NCBI GenBank assembly: GCA_022486625.1
Contig: JAKVKH010000013.1
Location: forward strand, 1-64,000
Origin: Butyrivibrio sp.
GTDB lineage: Bacteria > Bacillota > Clostridia > Lachnospirales > Lachnospiraceae
DNA length: 64,000 nucleotides
Reading direction: 5' to 3'
Shown here: positions 1,025 through 59,523 of the stretch, piece after piece
Layout of the letters: each line of letters opens with the position of its first letter
Numbering within the stretch: position 1 is the stretch's first letter
Translations under genes and position numbers: made by a program
Notes under the pieces: model-generated
What the model was told of the DNA's origin: nothing
What the model saw: only the letters and a program-made list of their open reading frames with translations
The model's database searches: none

Positions 1025-1916
1025 GATCTGATTCTCCTTTACGCTTTTTCCCTGCAGACGGTATGATCTCTTCATGGAAAAAATAATTGACAACAACCGG
1101 CGGTGCATCAAACGCCTGCTTCCCGGAATCATCATTTCTGAGATAGGTAAGCCCCAGCGCCTTTGTAAATTCCCGCATTTCAAGATCCAGTGCCGACCAG
1201 TAGCCGCGGTCTTTCTCTTCATAGATATCCTGATAAAGCGGCAGCAGATCCGGCCTGTTATCACGGATCCAGTTCATAATCGCTCCCTTATAGGAACCGC
1301 GCAGGTTCAGATTCTCCAGCCAGACCAGATTGCAGTAATCCTTCGTTTTCAGAATGATTTCCTTCGGATCTGTAATACCCGGAAAGATCGGAGAGATAAA
1401 GCAGGTGGTTCTGATTCCGGCTTCATGAAACGCTTTCATGGCTGCAATCCTGCGCTCTATACTGACGGCGCTGTCCATTTCCTTACGAAATGACTCATCC
1501 AGTGTATTGATGCTCCACGATACTCTTGCATTCGGAAATGTCCGGATCAGATCCAGATCACGAAGCACCAGATCTGACTTTGTTGCAATGCTGATACTGC
1601 ACCCTGAACCCTGCATTTCTTCCAGCAGCCTTCGGGTCCGTCTGTATGTTTCTTCGGCTTCCTGATACGGGTCTGTAACAGAACCTATGAACAGCTCTTT
1701 TCCTGCATACTTCTCAGGATTTCTGATTGCGGGCCAGTTCTTCACATCAACGAATTCGCCCCACGGCTCCGGATGATTGGCAAACCGCTTCATAAAGGAC
1801 GCATAGCAGTATCTGCATGCATGCGCGCAGCCGGTATACGGGTTCACCGAATAATCCGCAACCGGAAGATTTGATTTTGTTAATATCCCTTTGACTTCTG
1901 TTTCCTTAATGAGCAT
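1017..1916 (-). CDS. SPL-family radical SAM protein (resembles radical SAM mobile pair protein B)
   Basis: A 299-residue protein with the radical SAM cluster motif CAHACRYCYA (CxxxCxYC, about residues 31-40) near the N terminus, the arrangement of the spore-photoproduct-lyase-like group. Long stretches (NPYTGCAHACRYCYASFMKR, SWSINTLDE, CFISPIFPGITD) are, from memory, typical of the family called radical SAM mobile pair protein B; I could not check this by search. Substrate unknown. A GGAGGAAGG ribosome site sits 5-13 bases before the ATG. It is divergent from a MarR gene, which is also usual for that mobile pair, but no obvious pair protein A is present. The downstream adenylation gene overlaps it. 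Confidence 0.85.
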   Translation of the reverse strand: MLIKETEVKGILTKSNLPVADYSVNPYTGCAHACRYCYASFMKRFANHPEPWGEFVDVKNWPAIRNPEKYAGKELFIGSVTDPYQEAEETYRRTRRLLEEMQGSGCSISIATKSDLVLRDLDLIRTFPNARVSWSINTLDESFRKEMDSAVSIERRIAAMKAFHEAGIRTTCFISPIFPGITDPKEIILKTKDYCNLVWLENLNLRGSYKGAIMNWIRDNRPDLLPLYQDIYEEKDRGYWSALDLEMREFTKALGLTYLRNDDSGKQAFDAPPVVVNYFFHEEIIPSAGKKRKGESDHE

Positions 1917-1963
1917 TGCCTTCCTCCATACGTGAACGGTCCGTTGTAATGATCGATATATTA

Positions 1964-1991
1964 ATTATACTTTATTCGTTTAAAGGTTCAA
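1964..1991 (-). promoter_or_regulatory. Promoter of the radical SAM/adenylation operon
   Basis: On the minus strand TTGAAC (1991-1986) and a perfect TATAAT (1969-1964) are separated by 16 bp, about 50 bp upstream of the radical SAM start codon. Confidence 0.6.
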
Positions 1992-2073
1992 GTACGCAGA
2001 ATTTTGTAACATAGTACGCTGCAGCATACCATAAGAACTGTAACTAAAGGCTGACCCATTTTACCGGATCGCA

Positions 2074-2102
2074 TTGACAGATTCCGAAATCACGGGTATC
2101 AT
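2074..2102 (+). promoter_or_regulatory. Promoter of the MarR/DUF1848 operon
   Basis: A perfect -35 TTGACA (2074-2079) and TATCAT (2097-2102) are 17 bp apart. The palindrome at 2106-2121 begins 3 bp after the -10, over the likely transcription start. Confidence 0.65.
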
Positions 2103-2105
2103 AAT

Positions 2106-2121
2106 AGTCAATTAATTGACT
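2106..2121. promoter_or_regulatory. Probable MarR operator, perfect 16-bp palindrome
   Basis: AGTCAATTAATTGACT reads the same on both strands and lies between the -10 box and the MarR start codon. Its length and place are those of an autorepressor site for a MarR dimer. Binding by the adjacent regulator is inferred. Confidence 0.6.
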
Positions 2122-2168
2122 TTTGTAAAGAACTTTTTTTCGTGGTCAAAAAAGAGATGGGAAAAACA

Positions 2169-2648
2169 ATGACAAAAGAAGATCGCCGGAATGCATTCCT
2201 TTACTGCAAGTTCAGAGATGAACAATATGCGCTCTATGACGAGTTTGCCAAGAGAAACGGCATGCTGATGAAAACCTTTCTGGTTCTGAATGCCCTGTTC
2301 TATGCAGATGAGGGCATGACTCAGAAGCAGATCTGTGACCGGACCTTCAATTCTAAGCAGACGGTCAGCCTGATCATCAAAAATCTTCTGGCTGACGGCT
2401 ATATCGAACTTCTGGACAATAAAGAAGACAGAAGGAATAAAATTGTACGTATGACGAATGCAGGCCGCACCTACGCAGAGCGCCCGGTTCGTCACATTAC
2501 ACAGGCGGAGGACACGGCGATGTCGCTGTTCTCCCCCGAAGAACAGAAACAGCTGATTGACCTGTCACGGAAATTTACGAAGAGGCTGACGGAACTGGTA
2601 AACGAAGATCTTATAAATAAAGATGCAAATGAGGGCAAAAAGCAATGA
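2169..2648 (+). CDS. MarR-family transcriptional regulator
   Basis: A winged-helix regulator of about 159 residues. The recognition region reads KQICDRTFNSKQTVSLIIKNL, followed by the wing DNKEDRRNKIVRMT with the Asp/Arg pair common in MarR wings. The ATG at 2169 is preferred over the GTG at 2142 because a GAGATGG element lies about 8 bases before it, whereas the GTG has only a weak site; the ATG at 2157 is also possible. Its stop overlaps the next start as ATGA (2645-2648), so it is translationally coupled to the DUF1848 gene. It probably controls both divergent units through the palindrome at 2106-2121. Confidence 0.85.
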   Translation: MTKEDRRNAFLYCKFRDEQYALYDEFAKRNGMLMKTFLVLNALFYADEGMTQKQICDRTFNSKQTVSLIIKNLLADGYIELLDNKEDRRNKIVRMTNAGRTYAERPVRHITQAEDTAMSLFSPEEQKQLIDLSRKFTKRLTELVNEDLINKDANEGKKQ

Positions 2649-3556
2649 TAATCAACACAGGCGGACGCACCGATACGGTGCAGTACTATACAAAATGGCT
2701 TTTAAAGCGGTTTGAGGAAGGATACGTATATTCCCGCAATCCTCTTTTCCAGAATAAGGTCACACGCTATGAGCTGACACCGGAAACTGTAGACTGCGTG
2801 GTGTTCTGTTCCAAAAACTACGCCCCGATCCTGCCGGACCTCTCCGGCATCACGGACCGCTTCCATACTTATTTCCATTACACGATCACTGCCTATGGAA
2901 AAGAGATTGAACCAGGCGTTCCTTCCATCCGCGACAGCATGGAAACGCTCCGGAGGCTCTCTGCAATCGTCGGCAGAGAAAAGGTCGCCTGGCGCTATGA
3001 TCCTGTCCTTCTGACAGAAAAGTATACCATCGCCTGTCATCTTGAGACCTTTGAAAAAATGGCAAAAGCGCTGACTCCCTATGTCGACCGCTGCATCTTC
3101 AGTTTCGTTGAAATGCATAAGAAACTCGAAACCAACATGCCGGAACTGATTCCGATGACAGAAGCAGATCAGGATACTCTCGCACGTGAAATGGGAAAAA
3201 TTGCCGCAAAATACGGCCTGTACCTGCAAACCTGCGGAACAAACGGCGATTATGCCAGGTATGGAATTCACCCTTCCGGCTGTATGACACTGGATATGCT
3301 GGGGAAAGCAAACGGAATTGTCTTCCGGAATCTGAAGCATACGGGAATGCGAAACGGTTGTCACTGCATTCAGAGCCGCGACATCGGCGCATATGACACC
3401 TGCATGAATGGCTGCAGATACTGTTATGCCAATAAAAATCCGCAGAAAGCCTTTGAGAATTACCGGTATCATGACCCCGACTCCCCTCTTCTTCTGGGGA
3501 ATCTGAAAGACAGCGACACCCTTCTGCAGGGTGCCCAGAAGAGTTTTCTTTCTTAA
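2645..3556 (+). CDS. DUF1848 family protein, probable Fe-S protein
   Basis: A 303-residue protein recognised as DUF1848: N-terminal segment with a RYDP motif (WRYDPVLLT), a middle part resembling a TIM barrel, and a C-terminal cysteine cluster CMNGCRYCYA (about residues 254-263) that repeats the CxxxCxYC spacing of the radical SAM protein on the other side of the MarR gene. Other cysteines (CGTNG, SGCMT, GCHC) precede it. The family has no assigned reaction that I know of. It is translationally coupled to the MarR gene, and the divergent layout suggests that it works with the SPL-like enzyme, which is inference. Confidence 0.8.
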   Translation: MIINTGGRTDTVQYYTKWLLKRFEEGYVYSRNPLFQNKVTRYELTPETVDCVVFCSKNYAPILPDLSGITDRFHTYFHYTITAYGKEIEPGVPSIRDSMETLRRLSAIVGREKVAWRYDPVLLTEKYTIACHLETFEKMAKALTPYVDRCIFSFVEMHKKLETNMPELIPMTEADQDTLAREMGKIAAKYGLYLQTCGTNGDYARYGIHPSGCMTLDMLGKANGIVFRNLKHTGMRNGCHCIQSRDIGAYDTCMNGCRYCYANKNPQKAFENYRYHDPDSPLLLGNLKDSDTLLQGAQKSFLS

Positions 3557-3566
3557 GTCCATTACC

Positions 3567-4067
3567 TCATGTCCAGACAGATATGCTTGTCTTACCTGCA
3601 TGGCCTTCCTTTTCCCCTGCAGATATGACAAGTTCAGCTGTATCCTCATAAAATCCTGCTATTTCATCTGCAATTTCAGAAACATCTTCAAGTCGGATGT
3701 TTCCTTCTACTCTGATCACTGCGCTTTTCTCTGAATGCATTTTATTACGTCCGTTGTTCATCATTTCAGACAATGCATTCTCATAATCGCTTCTATCACA
3801 CTCTTTATATATAAAAATGCCATTCTCCGGCATAGCCCGGTTAATGTCCTGTGCATCTACCCCGATCAGCTGATCTGCATTCAGCAGATGATCAAACTGC
3901 CTTATAAAGTCATTCTATCTGTCCCGTTCACATCTTATCCCGCATTTTTTATGTTCTGCTGCAATATTGATACAGATGCTGTCTTCTGACTTCGTCAATA
4001 CATAGTCTGCTTTTGAAACGCTTCCCGGCGCTCCTTCTGAAATAACATCTATTGAATATCCTTCCAC
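3567..4067 (-). pseudogene. Orphan FtsZ C-terminal-like protein interrupted by an in-frame amber codon
   Basis: Reading the minus strand from GTG 4067, which has a very strong AGGAAGGGG ribosome site, one frame runs to a stop at 3567 and is broken only by TAG at 3915-3917, giving 50 + 115 residues. The second part (GVDAQDINRAM, then YENALSEMM, SAVIRVEGNIRLEDVSEIAD, then KTSISVW) follows the pattern of the FtsZ C-terminal (tubulin-like) domain without any GTPase domain. The amber could be a CAG-to-TAG change. It sits 15 bp downstream of the WYL gene and is the last gene of that operon. The FtsZ resemblance is my reading of the pattern and needs a profile search. Internal reinitiation at ATG 3833 is possible. 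Confidence 0.6.
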
Positions 4068-4082
4068 GGTCTTACCCCTTCC

Positions 4083-5108
4083 TCATTTCTTCTGTGAATA
4101 TCGCAAGGTCATCTGCGCCACTGCATCTGCAACTTTTCTTCTGAGTGCTTCCGGTCTTTCCACTTCCACATACTGTCCATACTGCATCAGCCAGAAGAAC
4201 ATTGCCTTCACGTTTACCCTTACCGTTACATGCACAGAACTTTCTGTTTCATCAAAAAAGCGAATATTCTTTCCAAACCAGTCCATAATCTCCGTAATCA
4301 AGAATCTGTCTGCCCTGAAAGTCACCTTCTCACTTTCGCCCGACATCATGTAAATATGTTCTGCCATATGTTCCGGGAGGTTCAGCCCTTTCTCACATCC
4401 AGGCAGGGATTCGAGCGGCTTAATTCTGTTCTCCGATAACATAATGTCTTTCATGCGATCAATACGGTAATAACTCAGATTCTCATACTTATCATTATTA
4501 CAGATCAGATAAAAGCGGCCGTTTGTAGCAACAATTCTATAAGGATTAATCATATACTCTTTCACACCGCCGGCATCATCCCTGCGCTCATACATCTTCT
4601 TGTCTGAATGATATTCACAATAGTGAAAACTGACCTGTCTCCCTTTTCCAATTGCTTCATCCAGAACATCCAGAATATAGAAAATCTGCTTGTTTTCCGG
4701 TCTTGTTTCCGGTAGATTCCGAATATTGTCCACATTGGCCCGAAAATAATTGCTCGAAAGCGCCTTCAGTTTCGTCACCAGTTCTCTGCACTGACAATAC
4801 GGTATTTCGTTTGAAAACAGCAGACTGTCAATCAGAACCCGAAGCTCTGGCTCTGTGAAGGAATGTGCATAATACCATTCTGATGAAATATTTTCTGACT
4901 CTCCTCTTTTATTGACTCTTATTCTGGAATCATCATATTGAATATTCGAATCATATTCTGAGAGTTGCATCAGACATTTCCTGATTGTCTTACGATCCGC
5001 TTCTTCCCCATATCCAGCCTTCAGCCTTTCCGATATCTGCTTCTGAGACATTCTATGGTTTTCGTCTGTTTCCTTCTGTAATATTTCATACAAATCAAGC
5101 AGAACCAT
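4083..5108 (-). CDS. WYL-domain transcriptional regulator
   Basis: A protein of about 341 residues with an N-terminal winged helix (MSQKQISERLKAGYGEEADR, RKTIRKCLMQL) and a C-terminal WYL region (EYMINPYRIVATNGRFYLIC, YYRIDRMKDI), the usual plan of WYL regulators, which bind ligands or nucleic acid and often control defence loci. The ATG at 5108 is chosen because GAGGTGA lies 5 bases upstream and it falls 10 bp after the nuclease stop; the longer frame would need a TTG start at 5153. It is the third gene of the helicase-fusion/nuclease operon. Confidence 0.85.
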   Translation of the reverse strand: MVLLDLYEILQKETDENHRMSQKQISERLKAGYGEEADRKTIRKCLMQLSEYDSNIQYDDSRIRVNKRGESENISSEWYYAHSFTEPELRVLIDSLLFSNEIPYCQCRELVTKLKALSSNYFRANVDNIRNLPETRPENKQIFYILDVLDEAIGKGRQVSFHYCEYHSDKKMYERRDDAGGVKEYMINPYRIVATNGRFYLICNNDKYENLSYYRIDRMKDIMLSENRIKPLESLPGCEKGLNLPEHMAEHIYMMSGESEKVTFRADRFLITEIMDWFGKNIRFFDETESSVHVTVRVNVKAMFFWLMQYGQYVEVERPEALRRKVADAVAQMTLRYSQKK

Positions 5109-5118
5109 TTGGGTCACC

Positions 5119-6297
5119 TCATCTCTGATCAGCGAATCCGCTCTTCTCTGCAATCTTTACTGCCTTTACACCTATTTCCCATAGTGAATTTTTCAGATCG
5201 TCTATTGACTTCTCATTAATATCAAATTTTATCAGACAGGTCTCATTCGCATCTTTCCAGGAACCATATTCATAACTTTTTATATATGGATAATCCTCGT
5301 AAATATGCTTTTTTAATCCCTCCAGAATTATTTCATACAAATCGTGCATCCGGGATCTGATCAGTTCCTGATCAGGCTGTTTTATGAAATATCTGTACAA
5401 TTTCAGCGATATACATGACATCTTGTCTTTATGATCAAGCCGGTAGCCGATCCAACATCCATACTTCTCTTCTCCATGTGGTCCCCACAGCCAGAACCAT
5501 GTAAAGGGATTCCCTTTATATTTCCTTGCTTCCAATATGGTTTTATATTTCTTTTCCGCATACATCTTTCCGGGCATTTGCTGCCCGATTTTATCTCTGA
5601 ACAGATCTTTCATGCAAAAGAGCTGCCCATAATTTTCCTGAAATGCATTTTCATAATCATGTTCTCTGTAATATTTCTCATAGCGCTCATACCAGCCATC
5701 CATTTCCAGCAGTCTTTTATAAAAATCCGAAACCAGAAATCCTTCCGGATTCTTCATATCCGCATATTTCCGGAATACCTGCTTGAGATCCGTGCGTCCG
5801 ATTTTTATTACTTTCACGGAGAATTCCATGCCTGCCTCATTTTTGTAACGGACATCTGTAACGGCATCATCTTCCGGGTAATAATTTCCGGTTTTTATAT
5901 AAACAACGCTGATCTGATTTTGATTTATCTTCTCCTGCTTTGCATTCCCTATAATAGATTTATAATATCTGTTCAGCTGATCATCATGAACAGAAGAATA
6001 TATTTTATCCTCGATGATGATCTGTTTCTTTTGACAGATTGTCAGAAGAATATCAATGCTCTCATGCTGCGTTTCTATTTTGACAAGCTCGTCCTGTACG
6101 CCTTTTCTTTTTTCAGCTTTAAGTTCTTCAAGCAGCTGATGATCCGCTTTGTCTGAGATCAGTTCCAGAAAAGAGATTGCCATTTGAAATAATGGTGAAT
6201 TTTCATCTTCGGCACAATTGATCCAGTTAAGACACCAGCAGAAAAATGCATCCTGAGAAAGTTCATTTTTACAAAATTCAAAAAAATTATTTTTCAT
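5119..6297 (-). CDS. PD-(D/E)XK nuclease superfamily protein
   Basis: A protein of about 392 residues. Counting from the ATG at 6297 the active-site signature is visible as Asp82 (ESIDILLTI) followed by Glu96-x-Lys98 (IIIEDKIY), the D...ExK pattern of the PDDEXK_4-like group. The C-terminal half (TWFWLWGPHGEEKYGCWIGY) resembles the companion region of such proteins. ATG 6297 is preferred to the TTG at 6357 because AGAGGAAA precedes it. The gene follows the DnaB-DnaA fusion by 72 bp and precedes the WYL regulator by 10 bp, so it is in one operon with them. Nuclease activity is inferred from the motif; the DNA substrate is unknown. Confidence 0.8.
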   Translation of the reverse strand: MKNNFFEFCKNELSQDAFFCWCLNWINCAEDENSPLFQMAISFLELISDKADHQLLEELKAEKRKGVQDELVKIETQHESIDILLTICQKKQIIIEDKIYSSVHDDQLNRYYKSIIGNAKQEKINQNQISVVYIKTGNYYPEDDAVTDVRYKNEAGMEFSVKVIKIGRTDLKQVFRKYADMKNPEGFLVSDFYKRLLEMDGWYERYEKYYREHDYENAFQENYGQLFCMKDLFRDKIGQQMPGKMYAEKKYKTILEARKYKGNPFTWFWLWGPHGEEKYGCWIGYRLDHKDKMSCISLKLYRYFIKQPDQELIRSRMHDLYEIILEGLKKHIYEDYPYIKSYEYGSWKDANETCLIKFDINEKSIDDLKNSLWEIGVKAVKIAEKSGFADQR

Positions 6298-6369: not shown

Positions 6370-7806
6370 TTATTCAGAAATATCAGTATAATCATCCATA
6401 TCTCCAAGTGTACACAATGACATTCTTTTAAGCCTCATCCGGAATCTCTCGCTAATGTCATGGACATGGCTTGGGATCAGACTTCCCGCAATGATAATCT
6501 GCTTATTACACATCACCATTGCATCAAGAATTTCAATTGCTTCTTCCTGCATCCTGTTATCCCCGGACAAGCCTTCTATATCGTCTATCATGATCACATC
6601 ATTCTCTTCAATGCCGTCTCTTACATATTGTACCATCCCGATATCCTGATTCATGTCGCCATATGTAATTACTTCCTTCAGCATTCTTGCAGTCATATAC
6701 TTAATACGAACAGAAGTATTCTTCTGAAATATATATTCACCAATTGCCTGCATCAGATGTGTTTTTCCGCTTCCGCTCCCACCTGCAATATACAGCTGTC
6801 TGTAATCAGGATTTCCCTTTGCCGCTTCCATTGCTTTACTGTAAGCATTCATGTTTTCTTCATTCACCATAAATGTATGAAACGTATAAGCAGGGTTCAT
6901 GTCTGCTCTATGCAGGAGTTCACCCAAATAAACAGATTCCGAAAAAATCAGCATTTCCGGGTTCCACATCAGATAAACGGATCTGAGCGGACCATAATTG
7001 TTCTTTGCAATGCTAAGGTCTGCAACATTTTTATCAACTTCATCATTTTCCTGATAATGATAGTAGTCCTGTCTGTAAAGAAGCATCACCGCATCAGCTA
7101 TCTCCTCAATTTCCCCTGATCCTCGAAGATCAGAAAGCATAGGTCTGTGATCCGGTCGATATTCCGGTGTTCTGTTAAGCTCAGAAATTACCAGAACCAC
7201 TGCATTCATTTTGGCGGCAAGATTTTTCAACATCCGACATTCTGCAGATAATTCCTCATTTCTGTTGGCATCTGTATAATTTCCATCATATTCAATCAGC
7301 TGCAGATAATCGATAATGATCAGATCGACTTTATCTGCTTCATTTATCTCACTGCTTCTGTCAAAAATTTCTGTGATAGAACGTGACCTGTCTTCTACAG
7401 TGATTGGTGCATTTATGATGCGTTCTCCTGTCACATGCAAAGTTTCATATTCTTTGTCAGACAGATATCCGTTATCTACTGCACCTTCCGCTTTAATCTG
7501 CCCTGTAATACACAGCAGTTTCTTTAACAGATGTATGGCTGACATTTTGAGTGAGAAATAAATGCATCTTTTGTTTTGAATCAAGGCTGCATTGTATAAA
7601 ATATTCAGCGCAAGTGCTGTTTTTCCAATTCCCGGTCTGCCGCCAAGCGCATAAAGACTTCCTCTCTCCAGTTGTCCTATCGTTTTATCCAGCTCCCGAT
7701 ACCCTGTGCTGATACTCTGTTCTGCCTTTTTTCCTGACTTTACGTCTTCAAATTCAATAAATATCTTTTCCATTTGTTTTTCTAATTGCTGATTCTGATT
7801 TTCCAT
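6370..7806 (-). CDS. Fusion of a DnaB-type helicase domain with a DnaA-type AAA+ ATPase
   Basis: A 478-residue protein made of two replication ATPases. Residues about 30-290 are a DnaB C-terminal RecA-like domain: STGYRELD, Walker A GGRPGIGKT (55-63), Walker B DLIIIDYLQL (161-170), SELNR (208-212) and SDLRGSGEIEEIADAVMLLY (225-244). The DnaB N-terminal domain is absent. Residues about 300-465 match DnaA domain III: LHRADMNPAYTFHTFMV, Walker A GGSGSGKTHLMQAIG (342-356), Walker B DVIMIDDIEGL (403-413) and a box VII-like SERFRMRL with an arginine finger candidate. The chain ends soon after, so the DnaA lid and DnaA-box-binding domain IV are missing. A loader or remodeller of replication forks is a reasonable guess. 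It heads an operon with nuclease, WYL and FtsZ-like genes. Confidence 0.85.
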   Translation of the reverse strand: MENQNQQLEKQMEKIFIEFEDVKSGKKAEQSISTGYRELDKTIGQLERGSLYALGGRPGIGKTALALNILYNAALIQNKRCIYFSLKMSAIHLLKKLLCITGQIKAEGAVDNGYLSDKEYETLHVTGERIINAPITVEDRSRSITEIFDRSSEINEADKVDLIIIDYLQLIEYDGNYTDANRNEELSAECRMLKNLAAKMNAVVLVISELNRTPEYRPDHRPMLSDLRGSGEIEEIADAVMLLYRQDYYHYQENDEVDKNVADLSIAKNNYGPLRSVYLMWNPEMLIFSESVYLGELLHRADMNPAYTFHTFMVNEENMNAYSKAMEAAKGNPDYRQLYIAGGSGSGKTHLMQAIGEYIFQKNTSVRIKYMTARMLKEVITYGDMNQDIGMVQYVRDGIEENDVIMIDDIEGLSGDNRMQEEAIEILDAMVMCNKQIIIAGSLIPSHVHDISERFRMRLKRMSLCTLGDMDDYTDISE

Positions 7807-7885
7807 ATTATGTTCCTCTGCTGCATTTTACAGCTGTTTACCGTTGATTTCTTTAATGATCTTATATATTTATATTTCTATAATA

Positions 7886-7923
7886 GCAAAAGGCATGGGG
7901 ATTATTTTCCTCATGCCTTTTGC
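7886..7923. terminator. Hairpin between toxin-antitoxin genes and the helicase-fusion operon
   Basis: GCAAAAGGCATG pairs with CATGCCTTTTGC around a short loop. It lies downstream of the toxin gene in the minus direction; the following T content is moderate, so termination is plausible rather than certain. Confidence 0.5.
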
Positions 7924-7930
7924 CATTAAT

Positions 7931-7986: not shown

Positions 7987-8289
7987 TTATAAATTCCGTC
8001 CCTGATATTGGATTGTTACAACAATTACAAGCTTCTGTTTTTCATCAATTTTGAAAATCACAATATAGTTATCGATCAGAAGCTGTTTATACCCTTTTCC
8101 GGCATATCTGCCCGTTTGTCTGTCCTGATGAGATGCAGGCTGTGTATCAAGTTTTTTCAAAGCATCCCATATTCTGTCAGTCTGTCCCTGCGCATTTTCA
8201 GGTGCCATTTTCTCCATGGCAATGTAGCTAAAAATATCATCCAGATCCTTGAACGCGCGTGGAGTAACCTTGACTTTGAACTTATCCAT
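7987..8289 (-). CDS. RelE/ParE-family toxin
   Basis: A 100-residue basic protein beginning FKVKVTPRAFKDLDDIFSYI, the helical start of the RelE/ParE fold, and ending with the strand region YKQLLIDNYIVIFKID and VVTIQYQGRNL. Members either cleave mRNA at the ribosome (RelE) or poison gyrase (ParE); the sequence alone does not decide. It overlaps the antitoxin gene by 8 bp (8282-8289), a standard arrangement with the antitoxin first. Confidence 0.85.
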   Translation of the reverse strand: MDKFKVKVTPRAFKDLDDIFSYIAMEKMAPENAQGQTDRIWDALKKLDTQPASHQDRQTGRYAGKGYKQLLIDNYIVIFKIDEKQKLVIVVTIQYQGRNL

Positions 8290-8545
8290 AATATTTCTTG
8301 TTCAACCTTTCAAATGCTTCATCAAGATCCATAAGCTCTCCGTCTCCGGTCACCTCTTTTTCAGACTCATAAATAGCCTGATCAAGACGATTCTCTCTTG
8401 CAATCTTGTCATACAGTTCAGAACTCATAACAACAAGATCACTATAACCATTCTTTGTAATAAAAATAGGCTGCTGCTCTTTATGAGCAATTTCAGATAT
8501 TTCATTTGTTTTTCTTAAATCTCTGATTGGCATGATAATTGGCAT
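8282..8545 (-). CDS. Phd/YefM-family antitoxin
   Basis: An 87-residue protein with the Phd/YefM N-terminal pattern (PIRDLRKTNEISEIAHKEQQ, then PIFITKNGYSDLVVMSSELY) that forms the DNA-binding dimer, and an acidic C-terminal tail that would wrap the toxin. GGAGGTAATGATAC directly before the ATG is a clear ribosome site. It is the first gene of the toxin-antitoxin pair and normally represses its own promoter. Confidence 0.88.
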   Translation of the reverse strand: MPIIMPIRDLRKTNEISEIAHKEQQPIFITKNGYSDLVVMSSELYDKIARENRLDQAIYESEKEVTGDGELMDLDEAFERLNKKYYG

Positions 8546-10085: not shown

Positions 10086-10463
10086 TTATTTCTTCCTTCC
10101 GTCCTCATCGAAATTATTCTTTAATGCTTTCTCTGTAGGAAAAATTGAAACGATCAATATTGCAGTCTGTATTGTAACAAGGATTACTCCGGCGCCTCCG
10201 ATTTTGTCGTCTGTGCTTCCGTAAAACGGTATGTTGACAATCACTGATGGCACGAGCATCATCCATCCGATTTTCCACCACAATCTTCCGCAGTAAATAT
10301 GGGCAAAATCCCATGTATCCCTGTTCTTCATGGAACGCGGAGTTCTATAACCGACAAACCCGTTTATATTCTTCGGGGTATGTCTCCACATCATCCATCC
10401 TCCGATTATCATTATCATGGGAATCACCAAATCAGAGATTAACATAAACCACCAGAACCACAT
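10086..10463 (-). CDS. SdpI/YhfL-family membrane protein
   Basis: About 125 residues with three hydrophobic segments and the family signature GFVGYRTPRSMKNRDTWDFA (about residues 35-54 from this start), followed by a Trp-rich stretch and two further membrane helices. SdpI proteins give immunity to the SDP toxin in Bacillus, but most relatives have no tested role. ATG 10463 is preferred to 10469 because the GGGAGG site needs the extra spacing. It is the first gene of a pair with the MarR regulator. Confidence 0.75.
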   Translation of the reverse strand: MWFWWFMLISDLVIPMIMIIGGWMMWRHTPKNINGFVGYRTPRSMKNRDTWDFAHIYCGRLWWKIGWMMLVPSVIVNIPFYGSTDDKIGGAGVILVTIQTAILIVSIFPTEKALKNNFDEDGRKK

Positions 10464-10488
10464 TATCATTTCCTCCCGAAAGCAAAAC

Positions 10489-10525
10489 GCGCAGCATACT
10501 GCGTATTATATGCAGCATGTTGCGC
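10489..10525. promoter_or_regulatory. 37-bp imperfect palindrome over the SdpI/MarR promoter
   Basis: The outer arms are GCGCAGCATACTGC and GCAGCATGTTGCGC, and the centre contains TATAAT on the minus strand (CATATAATACGC), so the repeat embraces a -10 box. It is a likely binding site for the MarR protein at 9524-10012. Confidence 0.55.
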
Positions 10526-10547
10526 ATTGTCAAGATTGTGTTTCACT

Positions 10548-11045
10548 TTATTCCGGCTTTACTGTCCTCATCCTTGTCAGTTCAATTGCCTCTTTACCGG
10601 TCACCTGTTCGATCGTTATTTCAATGCAGCTGAGCGCATTCCATTCTTTCGCAATCTCCTTCTCAACTGCTTCCGGATCATCACAGTATTTCAGACTGAG
10701 AACTTCTGCAGCATGATGAATCTCTTCTTCTGTCTGAAGCTTTCTGGCTCTGCCGAAAATAATGACACTTCTGAAATAGGTAGTCAGTTCCTGTGCCACA
10801 ATATCGTCTTTCTCTATTACGCAAAGAGAAACCTTATCACATGCTGCAATGGCATCCTGCTTATGTCCGCTTCTGGCGCCATGAATATATATTTTACCAT
10901 CTGCATACACATAGTTTACCGGCACCGTATAGGGATAACCTTCGTCACCAATTACACCCAGCACCGCCGTTTTTCCCTGTTCCAGAATCTGAATGCTTTC
11001 CTCCTGACTTAACTGCTGTCTGAATCTTCTCATTTTACGAAACAT
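10548..11045 (-). CDS. Pyridoxamine 5'-phosphate oxidase-like flavin-binding protein
   Basis: About 165 residues of the split-barrel PNPOx-like fold: AVLGVIGDEGYPYTVPVNYV, then KIYIHGARSGHKQDAI, then VSLCVIEKDDIV and a central FRSVIIFGRARKL. This is the pattern of the NimA-related/FMN-binding subgroup, which includes nitroimidazole reductases, so a flavin-dependent reductase or a heme-binding protein is likely; the substrate is unknown. The second Met (11045) has GGAGG at 7 bases, whereas the first overlaps that site. Confidence 0.82.
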   Translation of the reverse strand: MFRKMRRFRQQLSQEESIQILEQGKTAVLGVIGDEGYPYTVPVNYVYADGKIYIHGARSGHKQDAIAACDKVSLCVIEKDDIVAQELTTYFRSVIIFGRARKLQTEEEIHHAAEVLSLKYCDDPEAVEKEIAKEWNALSCIEITIEQVTGKEAIELTRMRTVKPE

Positions 11046-11089
11046 AGTCATCCTCCATTCTCGATTTCACAGCCATCCAAATAAAAAAC

Positions 11090-11149
11090 GCATCTGCAGA
11101 TGCATATCTTCTTTGACCTAACGATATACACTCAGATGCGTAATTACGC
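11090..11149. promoter_or_regulatory. Two perfect palindromes upstream of the PNPOx-like gene
   Basis: GCATCTGCAGATGC (11090-11103) and GCGTAATTACGC (11138-11149) lie 45-105 bp before the start codon at 11045. They are candidate operators; no regulator can be assigned from sequence. Confidence 0.3.
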
Positions 11150-11283
11150 TTCTACCCGGTGGCAGTTTTATCATATTTAATTCAGATTCTCATAATACCA
11201 ATCTACCCGCCTTTAGTCAAGCAATTGCATTCTGCATTTTTTCCCGGTTCCCTCCGGTGCTTCTTCAAACCGGTTCACTGAAC

Positions 11284-55691: not shown

Positions 55692-57029
55692 TCATTCCGC
55701 TTTGAATATAAACGTATTATTTTCTCCGATTGTGAATTTCTCTCCTTCATGGACAAGCTTATCCTTGCCCGGTTCAATTAAACATCCACTATTGTCTTTT
55801 GTTCCATATGTAGATCCCAGATCCCTTAACAGGGCTTCCTTTCCATCTGGCAGTAATGTAATCTGGCAATGCTTTGCACTCACACCAGGTGTATCTTCAG
55901 GAAATACAATCTGGCACAGATCTTTCTGCCGTCCCAGTATGATTGAACCGGTAATCCGATATTTTAATCCCTGAAAGCAACCTCCTGCAGCCAACAGCAT
56001 CGGACCATGGTAAATCGCCTCATCCTTTTGTCCTGCCAATTGCTCAGCGCATATCCCTTTAACATCTGTTTTCTGCCTTTCATACAGATTTCTCTTAAAT
56101 TCTGCAACAGTACTGTATCTTTTTGAAGGCATACAGGCAAGCGCCTGTATCATTACCTGTGCCATTTCTTCAGGAAAAACAGCTGAGTACAAAAGCGCAC
56201 CTTCCTTGTCTTCCGAACGTTTTTCAGCAGATATCATTTTTTTACCTGTACAGCATCGATATACTGTTGCCGCAAGTGAATAAACATCTGACCAGGGGCC
56301 CTGCTTAACATCATCCTGATACAGTTCTATCGGTGCGTAGCCCTCTTTGGCAAAGTCCACAATACGACTTTTTCCATACATTGCCTCACGTGCAAGTCCG
56401 TAATCAATGAGCCGTGGAGTTCCATCCGCACATACGATTATATTGTCCGGGCTGATGTCCCGATGAATAATATTACATTTATGCAGACCAATTACTGCAT
56501 CAAATATCGGTTCAAGAAGTGTCAACGTCTCCTTGAACGAAATCAAACCGCCCTTCTTTTTCAAATATTCTTCCAGACTGATCCCCTCAAGAAACTCCAT
56601 TGCATAATATAATGTATCATTTTCGTAAAAAATATCATATAACGCAATTATTCCTCTGACACCACTGTTTACCTTTAATATCTGTGCTTCTTTTTCAAAT
56701 CCTGCATATATTGTATCAAATTCTTCTCTGTTTTCCTTTGATCTCAGCCTGACTCTTTTGCCATCATCGGCACGTTGGCAGATCGTTCTTGCAAAGCACT
56801 CCTTGATTGCAACTTTTTTCTCTGTCTCAAGATCAATTGCAGCATAGGTAATTCCGCAGCCGCCTACACCGGCTACAAGCCCTACCAGATATTTTCTTCC
56901 TACTACCGTCCCAAGAGGGAGTGCAAATTCATATAACTGTGCTGTTATATTTTTCCGTCCGCACTTTGTACATATCCCATTCTGCACGCTGTCAGTCATG
57001 CAATAAAAACACAGTTTATTATAATCCAT
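55692..57029 (-). CDS. Zinc-ribbon Ser/Thr protein kinase with C-terminal FHA domain
   Basis: A 445-residue protein. A zinc ribbon (C7-x2-C10...C20-x2-C23) comes first, then a Hanks-type kinase: glycine loop AGVGGCGITYA (53-63), VAIKE Lys76, catalytic HRDISPDN (Asp191, Asn196) and DYG (209-211) in place of DFG. The C-terminal 85 residues form an FHA domain (GSIILGRQKD, SAKHCQITLL, DLGSTYGT) that binds phospho-Thr. There is no membrane helix. It is the last gene of a kinase-phosphatase-kinase operon, 22 bp after the PP2C gene, and probably senses the phosphorylation state set by the others. Confidence 0.9.
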   Translation of the reverse strand: MDYNKLCFYCMTDSVQNGICTKCGRKNITAQLYEFALPLGTVVGRKYLVGLVAGVGGCGITYAAIDLETEKKVAIKECFARTICQRADDGKRVRLRSKENREEFDTIYAGFEKEAQILKVNSGVRGIIALYDIFYENDTLYYAMEFLEGISLEEYLKKKGGLISFKETLTLLEPIFDAVIGLHKCNIIHRDISPDNIIVCADGTPRLIDYGLAREAMYGKSRIVDFAKEGYAPIELYQDDVKQGPWSDVYSLAATVYRCCTGKKMISAEKRSEDKEGALLYSAVFPEEMAQVMIQALACMPSKRYSTVAEFKRNLYERQKTDVKGICAEQLAGQKDEAIYHGPMLLAAGGCFQGLKYRITGSIILGRQKDLCQIVFPEDTPGVSAKHCQITLLPDGKEALLRDLGSTYGTKDNSGCLIEPGKDKLVHEGEKFTIGENNTFIFKAE

Positions 57030-57051
57030 TTCTTATCTGCAGCTCCCGTTC

Positions 57052-57888
57052 TCAGTTAAAGTCCATAATCAGTGCAGTATAATTATCCTGCGTTGGCTTC
57101 TTCTTTCCGGCAATGCATTCATCAATCCTCCTTGCAGCATTATCCGCTGACATTCGCATTGCTTTACACATTTCATTTTCTGACAACGTTCCGAATACAC
57201 CATCGGTCATCAGCACTACCTTATCATGCGGTAAAATTTTCACGGGATTAAGATTAAAGTCAATCTGATCAAGTTCATCCATTCCTATAAAATGAGTTAA
57301 TGCCTTCTTTTCATTGTTTTTCATAAATTCATCCATACCAATATTACCGGACGCTTTATCCATAAGAAGGTCCCTGATATAAACATGTTCACGATTCAGC
57401 TGAATCATGCCTCCCCTTCTTACAAGATATATTCTGCTGTCTCCGACTGATGCAAAATAAAGCTTGCCGTCAATAAAATCAACTGCTACAACAGTTGATC
57501 CGCTGACATCACCTGACGTATTCCGGATATATTTTCTGGCATCCTGATTGGCAACATGAATCATCTTTACAAGTTCTGATGATACATCCTCAGAAAACGG
57601 CACTTTACTGAAATATTCTTTCATGGAAGCCGTTACGATACCACTGATCTCTGCTCCATTTGCCAATCCTCCCATACCATCAGCAACTACTGCAAGAATT
57701 CCTTTTTCATGTGCCAGAACATAATCAGATAAATCTGAATGATAATAGCTATCCTGCTGACTTTCTCTGGCACCGATCTGGCTCACTTCGGAAATTTCCG
57801 GCATAAGTTCTTTTTTTTGAGCCTCGGAATGTTCTATCGTTCTTTTCCCTTTATTTCTGTCTGCCTTTTTACCTAAAAAACCAATCAT
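57052..57888 (-). CDS. PP2C-family Ser/Thr phosphatase
   Basis: A 278-residue PPM phosphatase: SQQDSYYHSDLSDYVLA, VADGMGGLANGAEISGIV (metal-binding DGMGG), FASVGDSRIYLVRRG and VVLMTDGVFGTLSEN. All acidic metal ligands appear present. It is the partner phosphatase of the two kinases on either side (18 and 22 bp gaps), as with the PrpC/PrkC pairs of Gram-positive bacteria. The N-terminal 35 residues are charged and lack a signal peptide, so it is cytosolic. Confidence 0.9.
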   Translation of the reverse strand: MIGFLGKKADRNKGKRTIEHSEAQKKELMPEISEVSQIGARESQQDSYYHSDLSDYVLAHEKGILAVVADGMGGLANGAEISGIVTASMKEYFSKVPFSEDVSSELVKMIHVANQDARKYIRNTSGDVSGSTVVAVDFIDGKLYFASVGDSRIYLVRRGGMIQLNREHVYIRDLLMDKASGNIGMDEFMKNNEKKALTHFIGMDELDQIDFNLNPVKILPHDKVVLMTDGVFGTLSENEMCKAMRMSADNAARRIDECIAGKKKPTQDNYTALIMDFN

Positions 57889-57906
57889 GTAATCACCTCT
57901 TGATTC

Positions 57907-59523
57907 TTATTTCACAAAGAAAATCCAGAAAACATATCCCTGCGAATTCTGAGTCACATCCACGCCAAGTTCATTCCCTGATAAAAGAACTTTTTTATAT
58001 GATTCATTTGAATCAATTTCATCCATAATTTTCTGCGCACTTACATTTTCATCTTCCGGTATTACAACCCATGATACATCTGACTGATTCGCATCATTTT
58101 TTACTTCATCCGCATATTGGTTGAACCTCGTTGTCCAGTCCTGTGCCGTTTTCACAATTCCTGTCTTATGACACTTTTCAGCATAAGCAGATGCCATATC
58201 CGTCAGATCCGCATTAATATGATATGTATCATAATTATTGTCTTCACAATAACGGTTCAATAACGAAACCAGCTCACTGACCTGCTGCTCCGGCTGCACT
58301 TCCTGCTGTTTTACAGAAACTATCGACGTCTCTGTCGTTCCATTTTCTGTCTCCGCCGCTTCATTTGCTGCCTTTCTGAAACGTTCTGCCGCTACAAAAA
58401 TAAGATCAGTTGCAATTACTGCAATTGCAATTATCAGAAATGTTTTTTTTCTCCGCTGACTGATGCTTACTTTTTCTATATGCTGCATCATGGCTTTTGT
58501 TGAACGTTCTCTTACAAGAATCTTCATTTTATCCGGTGTGGCAGAATCTGCATCCTGCTGTCCGTATACATATAGGAAATAATAAAGATCCCTTGCATTC
58601 TGAATCCGGTCTTCTGCCCTGACCGCCAGTCCATTCATAATTGCTGCATTCTGCAATGCCGTAAGATTCACATGATATGACAAAAGATCCGGTAGCTGAT
58701 CTTCTGTACTCCTTTTCACACAATCATCCGGAAGATGCCCTGATATCGCATGATACATTGTTGCTGCAAATGCATAGATATCTGTCCAACTCCCGAGCTG
58801 TCCGGTCCCTGTTTTCTGTTCCACCGGAGAATATCCCTGTTTATATACCCATAATTCCTGCCCATCTGCAGTTGATGTCTTAGCAGCAGCGCCAAAATCA
58901 ATCAGTTTTACTCTGTTATCCTCCAGTATCATGATATTATCCGGGCTGATATCCTTATGAATAATTCCCTTATCATGAATTTCTGCCATAGATCGTATAA
59001 CAGGTCTCATCAACTGGAAAACTTTTTCAGATTCCAGTTTTCCTCCTGATTCTCTCATAATCTGTGCAAGTGTCCTGCCTTCAAGATACTCCATTACAAT
59101 ATAGGCAGTTCCATTCTCTTCAAAATAATCCTTTACACTGACAATACCAGGCTCTTTATCAAACTGGGCAAGAATTCTTGCTTCTTCAATGAAACGCTCT
59201 TTTTCTTCCAGAAAAAACTTCTGTGCTCTTCCCGGAAATGGTACTACCATTTTTTCCTGTTCCCTTGATACATAATCTCCTGGATAAAACTCTTTAATTG
59301 CTACCCTTATCTCCAGATACAGGTCAAATCCAATATATGTCACACCGAATCCGCCGGCACCGAGGGCTCTTCCAACCAGATATTTTCCATGAAGAACAGT
59401 TCCATATGGTAAATGAGACGGTTCCTGCGGTGATGCAGCTTCATCAAAGCCGCACCACTCGCAGGAACCATCTGCATTTCCTTTTTCTCTCATGCAATTC
59501 AGACAGAGATTATTCACATTCAT
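57907..59523 (-). CDS. Zinc-ribbon Ser/Thr protein kinase with external CAP-like domain
   Basis: A 538-residue membrane kinase. Zinc ribbon Cys 7, 10, 21 and 24; kinase with LGAGGFGVTY (54-63), Lys77 (RVAIKEFY), HKDISPDN (Asp191, Asn196; HRD changed to HKD) and DFG (209-211). A membrane helix lies at about 371-388 (TFLIIAIAVIATDLIFVA). The external part (about 420-538) reads like a divergent CAP domain: SELVSLLNRYCEDNN, MASAYAEKCHKTG, LGVDVTQNSQGYVFWIFFV. Sensor domains of such kinases are more often PASTA, so this pairing is unusual. It overlaps the TPR gene by 14 bp. Confidence 0.88.
   Translation of the reverse strand: MNVNNLCLNCMREKGNADGSCEWCGFDEAASPQEPSHLPYGTVLHGKYLVGRALGAGGFGVTYIGFDLYLEIRVAIKEFYPGDYVSREQEKMVVPFPGRAQKFFLEEKERFIEEARILAQFDKEPGIVSVKDYFEENGTAYIVMEYLEGRTLAQIMRESGGKLESEKVFQLMRPVIRSMAEIHDKGIIHKDISPDNIMILEDNRVKLIDFGAAAKTSTADGQELWVYKQGYSPVEQKTGTGQLGSWTDIYAFAATMYHAISGHLPDDCVKRSTEDQLPDLLSYHVNLTALQNAAIMNGLAVRAEDRIQNARDLYYFLYVYGQQDADSATPDKMKILVRERSTKAMMQHIEKVSISQRRKKTFLIIAIAVIATDLIFVAAERFRKAANEAAETENGTTETSIVSVKQQEVQPEQQVSELVSLLNRYCEDNNYDTYHINADLTDMASAYAEKCHKTGIVKTAQDWTTRFNQYADEVKNDANQSDVSWVVIPEDENVSAQKIMDEIDSNESYKKVLLSGNELGVDVTQNSQGYVFWIFFVK

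Follow-up and report, generated by a model that had tools for sequence, protein, structure and literature searches.

The DNA analyzed here is a stretch of 64,000 nucleotides, hereafter called the window, from a Butyrivibrio genome (assembly GCA_022486625.1, contig JAKVKH010000013.1, positions 1 to 64,000). On its minus strand, from position 7806 to position 6370, a single intact reading frame running from ATG to TAA with no internal stop encodes a protein of 478 residues, in which the C-terminal, RecA-fold domain of the replicative helicase DnaB is joined to the AAA+ core of the initiator DnaA. The gene is followed on the same strand by genes for a PDDEXK_4 nuclease and a WYL-WCX transcriptional regulator (Table 1). 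A Pfam search assigned residues 32-289 to DnaB_C (E value 5.5e-69, 232.8 bits against a cut-off of 27) and residues 304-460 to Bac_DnaA (E value 1.9e-28, 100.1 bits against a cut-off of 23), and the fusion of the two domains in one chain is real.

Table 1. Features of the fusion locus, in window positions.
Feature	Position	Strand	Basis or remark
Fusion protein, 478 residues: DnaB C-terminal (RecA-fold) domain and DnaA AAA+ core	6370..7806	-	Pfam, NCBIfam, PDB
DnaB_C domain, residues 32-289	6940..7713	-	Pfam; the TIGR00665 alignment starts at residue 3, covering the DnaB linker-helix stretch
Walker A of the DnaB half, GRPGIGKT, residues 56-63, intact	7618..7641	-	sequence, alignment
Residue 87: Lys replaces the catalytic Glu (E262 of E. 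coli; residue 241 of the aligned PDB chain)	7546..7548	-	alignment
Residue 209: Glu replaces the motif-H3 Gln	7180..7182	-	alignment
Residue 270: Asn replaces the Arg finger (R442 of E. coli, R420 of B. stearothermophilus); K268 kept	6997..6999	-	alignment
DnaA AAA+ core, residues 304-460: Walker A GGSGSGKTH, Walker B IDD, R458, Y307; without lid and domain IV	6427..6897	-	Pfam, alignment, PDB
PDDEXK_4 nuclease	5119..6297	-	likely start ATG 6297, 72 base pairs after the fusion stop; the listed open reading frame starts at TTG 6357
WYL-WCX transcriptional regulator	4083..5108	-	likely start ATG 5108, 10 base pairs after the nuclease stop; the listed open reading frame starts at TTG 5153
Inverted repeat, 21-nucleotide arms, 90% complementary, 6-nucleotide spacer	7881..7928	.	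separates the fusion gene from the toxin-antitoxin pair

Domain identity of the two halves

The first half of the protein matched the whole-protein DnaB model TIGR00665 with 246.5 bits, below the cut-off of 385.25, over model positions 149-432 only. As the match begins at position 149, the fusion lacks the DnaB N-terminal domain, the linker-helix stretch being covered. The NCBIfam models returned for the second half 122.8 bits with DnaA, 65.3 with Hda, 46.5 with IstB and 43.3 with PRK06835, a DnaI/DnaC-like model; the DnaA and Hda scores are below the respective cut-offs of 343.9 and 194.8 bits, and the loader-type AAA+ family is a poorer match than DnaA. Among PDB sequences the first half retrieved DnaB. 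The second half retrieved five entries with E values below 1e-16 (to 4.9e-17), all of them DnaA, followed by PRMT5 (0.0048) and a helicase loader (0.0076).

The family, the Walker A and B motifs and the motif order of the first half are those of the DnaB C-terminal domain (PF03796), and the second half resembles the DnaA AAA+ core (PF00308) in its NPxYTF motif, its Walker A (GxxGxGKTH), its Walker B (IDD) and an Arg at the finger position. Unlike DnaB, the fusion has no N-terminal domain and carries a DnaA core; unlike DnaA, it is devoid of domains I, II and IV and of the lid, and its AAA+ core sits behind DnaB_C. Among the matches listed in the family and genus searches, identity did not exceed about 42% to any DnaB (38-42% for the best ones, over about 260 residues) and about 35% to any DnaA (about 28-35%). 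The DnaC/DnaI loaders are comparable to the fusion in that a DnaA-related AAA+ unit acts on DnaB; the fusion differs from them in its far lower score (43 bits against 123 for DnaA) and in bearing the AAA+ unit in cis.

A first-pass annotation, made from the letters of the window alone, had already described one chain joining a DnaB-type to a DnaA-type domain, with two Walker A/B sets but lacking the N-terminal domain of DnaB as well as domain IV of DnaA. All of this was borne out by the models, in which both domains scored far above their Pfam cut-offs. The possibility it raised that the second half might be a generic AAA+ or DnaC-like loader was ruled out by the DnaA and PRK06835 scores and by the PDB ranking.

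Replacement of catalytic residues in the DnaB half

Functional residues were compared in an alignment of the fusion with 51 ordinary DnaBs, chromosomal and element-borne and all from the bacterial family of the window, and with the six divergent DnaBs described below. Frames cut by contig ends in two genomes (G338 and G374) were counted as ordinary, and a 191-residue DnaB fragment of G363 was assigned to neither group. The DnaB half of the fusion retains Walker A, Walker B and K268, but the catalytic Glu, the Gln of motif H3 and the Arg finger are all replaced (Table 1). Among ordinary DnaBs the Glu and the Gln were present in 51/51 sequences and the Arg finger in 50/51, the single gap being due to a frame cut by a contig end. 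An earlier count on 55 sequences, four of them divergent, had returned 54 for the Glu, 54 for the Gln and 50 for the finger. A viral control gave Glu and Gln in 80/80 loci each, with Arg at the finger in 76 and Lys in four, a result skewed towards good DnaBs since the loci compared are the 80 best among 571 relatives retrieved with two conserved motifs.

For E. coli DnaB, a section of PMC6391071 identifies E262 as the catalytic Glu and K440 and R442 as nucleotide-site residues, and the role of the Arg finger is also stated in a passage of PMC8421360. Judged from these positions, ATP hydrolysis would be lost in the DnaB half. The first-pass annotation had regarded this half as a working helicase motor that might load onto or remodel forks; with all three residues replaced, neither proposal could be upheld, and a motor stays unproven for a helicase half lacking its catalytic residues. 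The closest parallel met in the open-access literature is provided by the divergent DnaBs of jumbo phages, which a portion of PMC7824862 considers catalytically active.

The DnaA half

Both nucleotide-binding motifs of the DnaA half, Walker A and Walker B, are intact. Alignment and PDB sequences placed R458 at the Arg-finger position of DnaA, with changed residues adjacent to it, and since the half ends soon after this position, the lid and domain IV are absent. The sensor-1 Ser-Ser-Asp of chromosomal DnaAs pairs with Ala-Gly-Ser in the fusion, in an alignment for which subsets of sequences were tried until both halves aligned. When numbering was matched by spacing, Y307 proved to be an aromatic residue at the position of His136 of E. 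coli DnaA, a residue which, according to part of PMC6127211, directs DnaB to the unwound origin and is conserved in its aromatic nature; the contact of the His136 region is placed there on the DnaB N-terminal domain. As far as its sequence tells, the DnaA half is better preserved than the DnaB half.

Distribution and phylogeny of the fusion

The genome search for the same two-domain order, suggested in the first-pass annotation, returned no example beyond the window: its own protein was the only full-length match listed in 79 genomes of the genus, 299 of the family, 392 of the order and 391 of the class, these samples being overlapping. In the genus, every candidate with an E value up to 1e-12 was scored; for the family, order and class samples, scoring was as a rule confined to the top 4-5 candidates of each genome. 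No record covering 80% of the fusion was found among 50,697 phage and 72,556 plasmid records. Viral contigs yielded no match to the whole fusion protein, none of 25 DnaA/DnaB loci being fused, nor was any of the 80 viral DnaB loci (best 80 of 571 relatives). A contig scan returned one stretch matching 53 residues, which was not used. In the open-access literature consulted we found no description of a DnaB-DnaA fusion or of a divergent or inactive DnaB of such kind.

The host genome encodes a full DnaA (G000:C12) and a full DnaB (G000:C2:9290), together with a third, weaker DnaA-domain match (G000:C2:26344), a frame of 321 residues that is DnaI-like by eye and lies beside a DnaD-like gene. As the host has ordinary DnaA and DnaB genes, the fusion is accessory. 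In phylogenetic trees both halves lay at the end of very long branches, of 3.09 (DnaA half) and 4.96 (DnaB half) changes per column, too long for the origin of either half to be resolved. Branches of this length tell against both an assembly artefact and a recently formed join of host genes, and leave room for decay.

Divergent DnaB_C proteins and a second fusion in the genus

The genus search, combined with a profile search of 13 chosen genus genomes, revealed at least six other DnaB_C proteins without the N-terminal domain in five genomes (two in G303 and one each in G307, G323, G326 and G335). Arg was found at the finger position in 0/6 of them, the finger column being unsure for the most divergent ones, at loci L130, L154 and L155. 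The catalytic Glu is kept in 5/6, L128 of G303 having Arg in its place, and the H3 Gln is changed in 3/6. Gene contexts were read for L128, L129, L130, L131 and L154. In L129 (2726-9357) a McrB-like gene, McrC, a gene for 217 residues and a WYL gene are arranged in this order, with DnaB_C directly next; in L128 (39-8947) the order is DUF2779 and WYL genes, an AAA+ gene, three others and DnaB_C. Both DnaB_C genes sit in defence-like islands near WYL regulators. The DnaB_C gene of L130 is accompanied by HNH and macro-domain genes and that of L154 by AAA+ and MBL-fold genes. The AAA+ genes of L128 and L154, and McrB beyond its AAA_5 domain, were read by eye, without a Pfam match.

The protein of G323 (L131, 9036-10271 on the plus strand, 411 residues) is a second DnaB-DnaA fusion of another design, in which DnaB_C (E value 3.7e-90) is joined to Bac_DnaA_C, the DNA-binding domain IV of DnaA (E value 4.6e-23), so that a different part of DnaA is used. 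The view of the first-pass annotation that helicase and initiator are separate in known bacteria does not hold for this protein. The next gene (10450-11181, plus strand) encodes a DnaA N-terminal domain (E value 1.6e-9), and the contig also carries a ParA-type ATPase and a TraG/TraD-type gene; DnaA-box-like matches on it numbered 1 against 1.69 expected. According to the genus search, G323 has ordinary DnaB and DnaA proteins elsewhere. The two fusions share the genus, a divergent DnaB_C without N-terminal domain, Asn at the Arg finger and an attached DnaA part; they differ in that the G323 protein bears domain IV instead of the AAA+ core, keeps the catalytic Glu and has partition- and transfer-type genes on its contig. 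In the DnaB tree the window fusion grouped with L131 and L130, and given the long branches and the weak support (80/51) this grouping does not establish common descent.

As for further copies of the G323 design, six plasmid records and one phage record covered 80% of the protein, and the one of these seven that was examined, from Pseudomonas silesiensis (91%), is an ordinary DnaB. Queries with the junction and domain IV alone matched 60 plasmid and 37 phage records, with 80% coverage reached by two of the phage records and by no plasmid. Six of these phage records were examined, both 80%-covering ones included, and were rejected as full-length DnaA, while one phage DnaB match was an ordinary DnaB. 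No second copy was thus found among the plasmid and phage matches examined, and viral contigs contained no relative of the G323 fusion.

A third arrangement occurs in four genomes of the genus (G309, G310, G316 and G324; loci L059-L062), where DnaA, a stand-alone lidless DnaA AAA+ protein and a full DnaB are encoded in a row, with a DnaI-like protein near the cluster in 3/4 genomes. The lidless protein (172 residues in L059, 3279-3797; 174 in L061) terminates at nearly the same point as the DnaA half of the fusion and likewise stands beside DnaB. However, it is a separate gene product, its DnaB is full and has the catalytic residues, and its Walker A is atypical, fitting GxxxxGKT (GKRYDGKT in L059) unlike that of usual DnaA. 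In L059 a PolC-like gene, identified by eye, precedes dnaA (cluster 1888-6195).

The nuclease, the WYL regulator and the surrounding block

The nuclease scored 36.2 bits with PDDEXK_4 against a Pfam cut-off of 22.3, its D and EDK residues being invariant in 3/3 aligned sequences. Its relatives are rare: one was found in 78 other genus genomes (at an E value of 1e-5), one in 298 others of the family sample (1e-6) and, by profile, one in 391 others of the order sample (1e-10); plasmids gave four partial matches and viral contigs none. In G311 (L063, 6040-9651) an AAA+-M41 gene is followed by WYL and PDDEXK_4 nuclease genes, a gene set that could form a three-gene module parallel to that of the window. 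In G471 (L105, 5658-8302) a WYL gene, the PDDEXK_4 nuclease and a macro-domain gene lie close to a TraG-type gene, and in G112 the nuclease was found with no WYL gene seen on its 11.7-kb contig. The pair of G311 and G471 is the same as in the window and stands beside an accessory gene in each case, the third gene being AAA+-M41 or macro-domain instead of the fusion. Since the fusion is absent from all three nuclease-bearing genomes, the nuclease and WYL genes form a unit of their own, which meets the fusion in the window alone. The nuclease next door reported in the first-pass annotation does adjoin the fusion gene, but its link to it stands on one genome, with the pair occurring in two others free of the fusion.

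WYL domains are treated in a section of PMC4012209 as predicted ligand-sensing regulators of defence systems. A PADLOC comparison, made at the level of protein matches and not of system rules, gave partial matches to mad8 within the AAA+ part (E value 6.5e-14), to PDC-S26 for the nuclease (9.5e-9) and to WYL (4.2e-27). Third-codon-position guanine-cytosine (GC) content ranges from 0.28 to 0.44 in the fusion block, compared with 0.46-0.57 for six window genes outside it. An empty-site comparison was uninformative, because the relatives of the two flanking genes are 40-49% identical and lie on different contigs in the five genomes having both. DnaA-box-like matches in the window numbered 11 against 6.25 expected, which is nothing notable, with one between 4 and 9 kb.

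The adenine-thymine-rich block that holds the fusion also contains, immediately upstream of it, a ParE-type toxin gene preceded by a Phd/YefM-like gene (7987-8545, minus strand), the latter scoring 29.1 bits, just below the Phd/YefM Pfam cut-off of 29.8. The inverted repeat at 7881-7928 looks like a terminator, yet it is not listed in the terminator scan.

Interpretation and alternative explanations

We tentatively interpret the fusion as a replication-targeting pseudo-helicase belonging to a WYL-regulated nuclease module that the chromosome has acquired, probably employed in conflict with phages or other mobile DNA, a reading that we consider possible rather than probable. The DnaB half would bind ATP without translocating and might dock on a helicase ring or its loader, while the DnaA half might act as an ATP-dependent switch that senses or joins the DnaA or loader assembly of host, phage or plasmid. 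Helicase loading would then be blocked or reported, with the nuclease as putative effector and the WYL protein controlling expression. Docking or blocking fits better than unwinding, because the residues lost are those converting ATP binding into movement and what is kept are the nucleotide sites, the linker-helix stretch and the start of the DnaA core, which is where DnaA contacts DnaB. Further points in favour are the finger-less DnaB_C proteins of other genomes, two of them near WYL regulators, the WYL-nuclease pairs of G311 and G471, the low third-position GC of the block and the aromatic Y307. According to part of PMC9912922, DnaC, DciA and lambda P bind a module including the DnaB linker helix. 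Conflict with mobile DNA is the probable use because a nuclease and a WYL regulator adjoin the gene.

Several points weigh against this interpretation. The exact fusion is known from a single genome, the nuclease/WYL link does not recur and three relatives of the nuclease are found without the fusion. For the fusion and its neighbours, PADLOC returned no system beyond weak or partial matches. Calling the group of divergent proteins dead may fail, since five of its six members keep the catalytic Glu, and the doubt about the finger column of L130, L154 and L155 touches the loss of the finger as well. The binding of DnaI, the Firmicute loader, to the linker-helix module is treated as unsettled in the same part of PMC9912922. 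A contact of the His136 type would be possible only with another DnaB, because the fusion has no DnaB N-terminal domain, and ATP switching is uncertain in a DnaA half that has lost the sensor-1 residues and the lid.

The alternatives were weighed on the same evidence. The fusion could be the replication factor of a mobile element stranded in the chromosome, serving as a platform akin to a loader which, with a DnaA-type ATPase and a DnaB-type interface in a single chain, recruits the host helicase to the element origin. The G323 fusion, with its neighbouring DnaA domain I gene and its contig with ParA-type and TraG/TraD-type genes, would suit this explanation, as would the four genomes in which dnaA and dnaB flank a gene for a lidless DnaA AAA+ protein; we nevertheless regard it as unlikely, since in the window the adjoining genes encode a nuclease and a WYL regulator, a single DnaA-box-like match lies at 4-9 kb and, by eye, no replication, partition or transfer gene was noticed in the open reading frame lists around the fusion. 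A role as regulator of host DnaA was also considered, in which the AAA+ half would join DnaA filaments and its Arg finger stimulate ATP hydrolysis or cap them, the DnaB half tethering the protein to forks. Hda, which has no domain IV, acts in this way on DnaA in E. coli, and R458, the retained Walker motifs and the missing domain IV recall it; but the Hda model scored 65.3 bits against its cut-off of 194.8, the lid and sensor 1 are lost, and occurrence in 1/79 genus genomes excludes a housekeeping role, which makes this regulator quite unlikely.

It is improbable, too, that the gene is a decaying, functionless relic of a chance fusion of element-borne dnaB and dnaA fragments. Very long branches of both halves, the loss of catalytic residues and the want of a homologue of the same architecture are what decay would produce, but 478 codons have stayed open, both P-loops and Walker B motifs are intact, and DnaB_C proteins devoid of N-terminal domain and finger recur in other genomes. 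A working helicase with a loader of its own in cis would explain the domain order, the Walker motifs and the K268 kept near the Arg-finger position; the replaced Glu, Gln and finger and the missing N-terminal domain render it highly improbable. A chimera of sequencing or assembly near residue 295, a doubt already raised in the first-pass annotation, is scarcely credible: the identical join was met in no second genome, but the frame is one and intact, third-position GC is similar across the halves (0.36 and 0.39), both diverge from the host copies with low identity to known DnaB and DnaA and with very long branches, and a differently built DnaB-DnaA fusion exists in another species.

The pseudo-helicase interpretation can be widened to the whole group, the finger-less DnaB_C without N-terminal domain then being, in this genus, a chassis for different DnaA pieces (the AAA+ core in the window, domain IV in G323) within defence or mobile-element modules that recognise helicase loading at an origin and block or report it. 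We regard this extension as somewhat unlikely; if true, it would represent a novel strategy for sensing or sabotaging the initiation of replication. New in the present data are the architecture itself, the alteration of its catalytic residues and the fact that finger-less DnaB_C proteins recur, with two of them fused to different DnaA parts. As these proteins recur, some of them in defence-like loci, they constitute a testable class rather than a single oddity. Helicase loading is an early and controlled step of replication, attacked by a phage protein according to part of PMC4887207, and the DnaA-DnaB contact in trans is described in a section of PMC6127211 as partly weak and transient. A natural polypeptide that unites a DnaB domain with a DnaA core would offer a handle on this contact and would mark replication initiation as a process that accessory modules watch or block.

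Finally, the minus strand of the window carries at 55692-59523, as judged by eye, a row of genes for two serine/threonine-kinase-like proteins, of which one apparently bears an FHA domain, and for a PP2C-like phosphatase.
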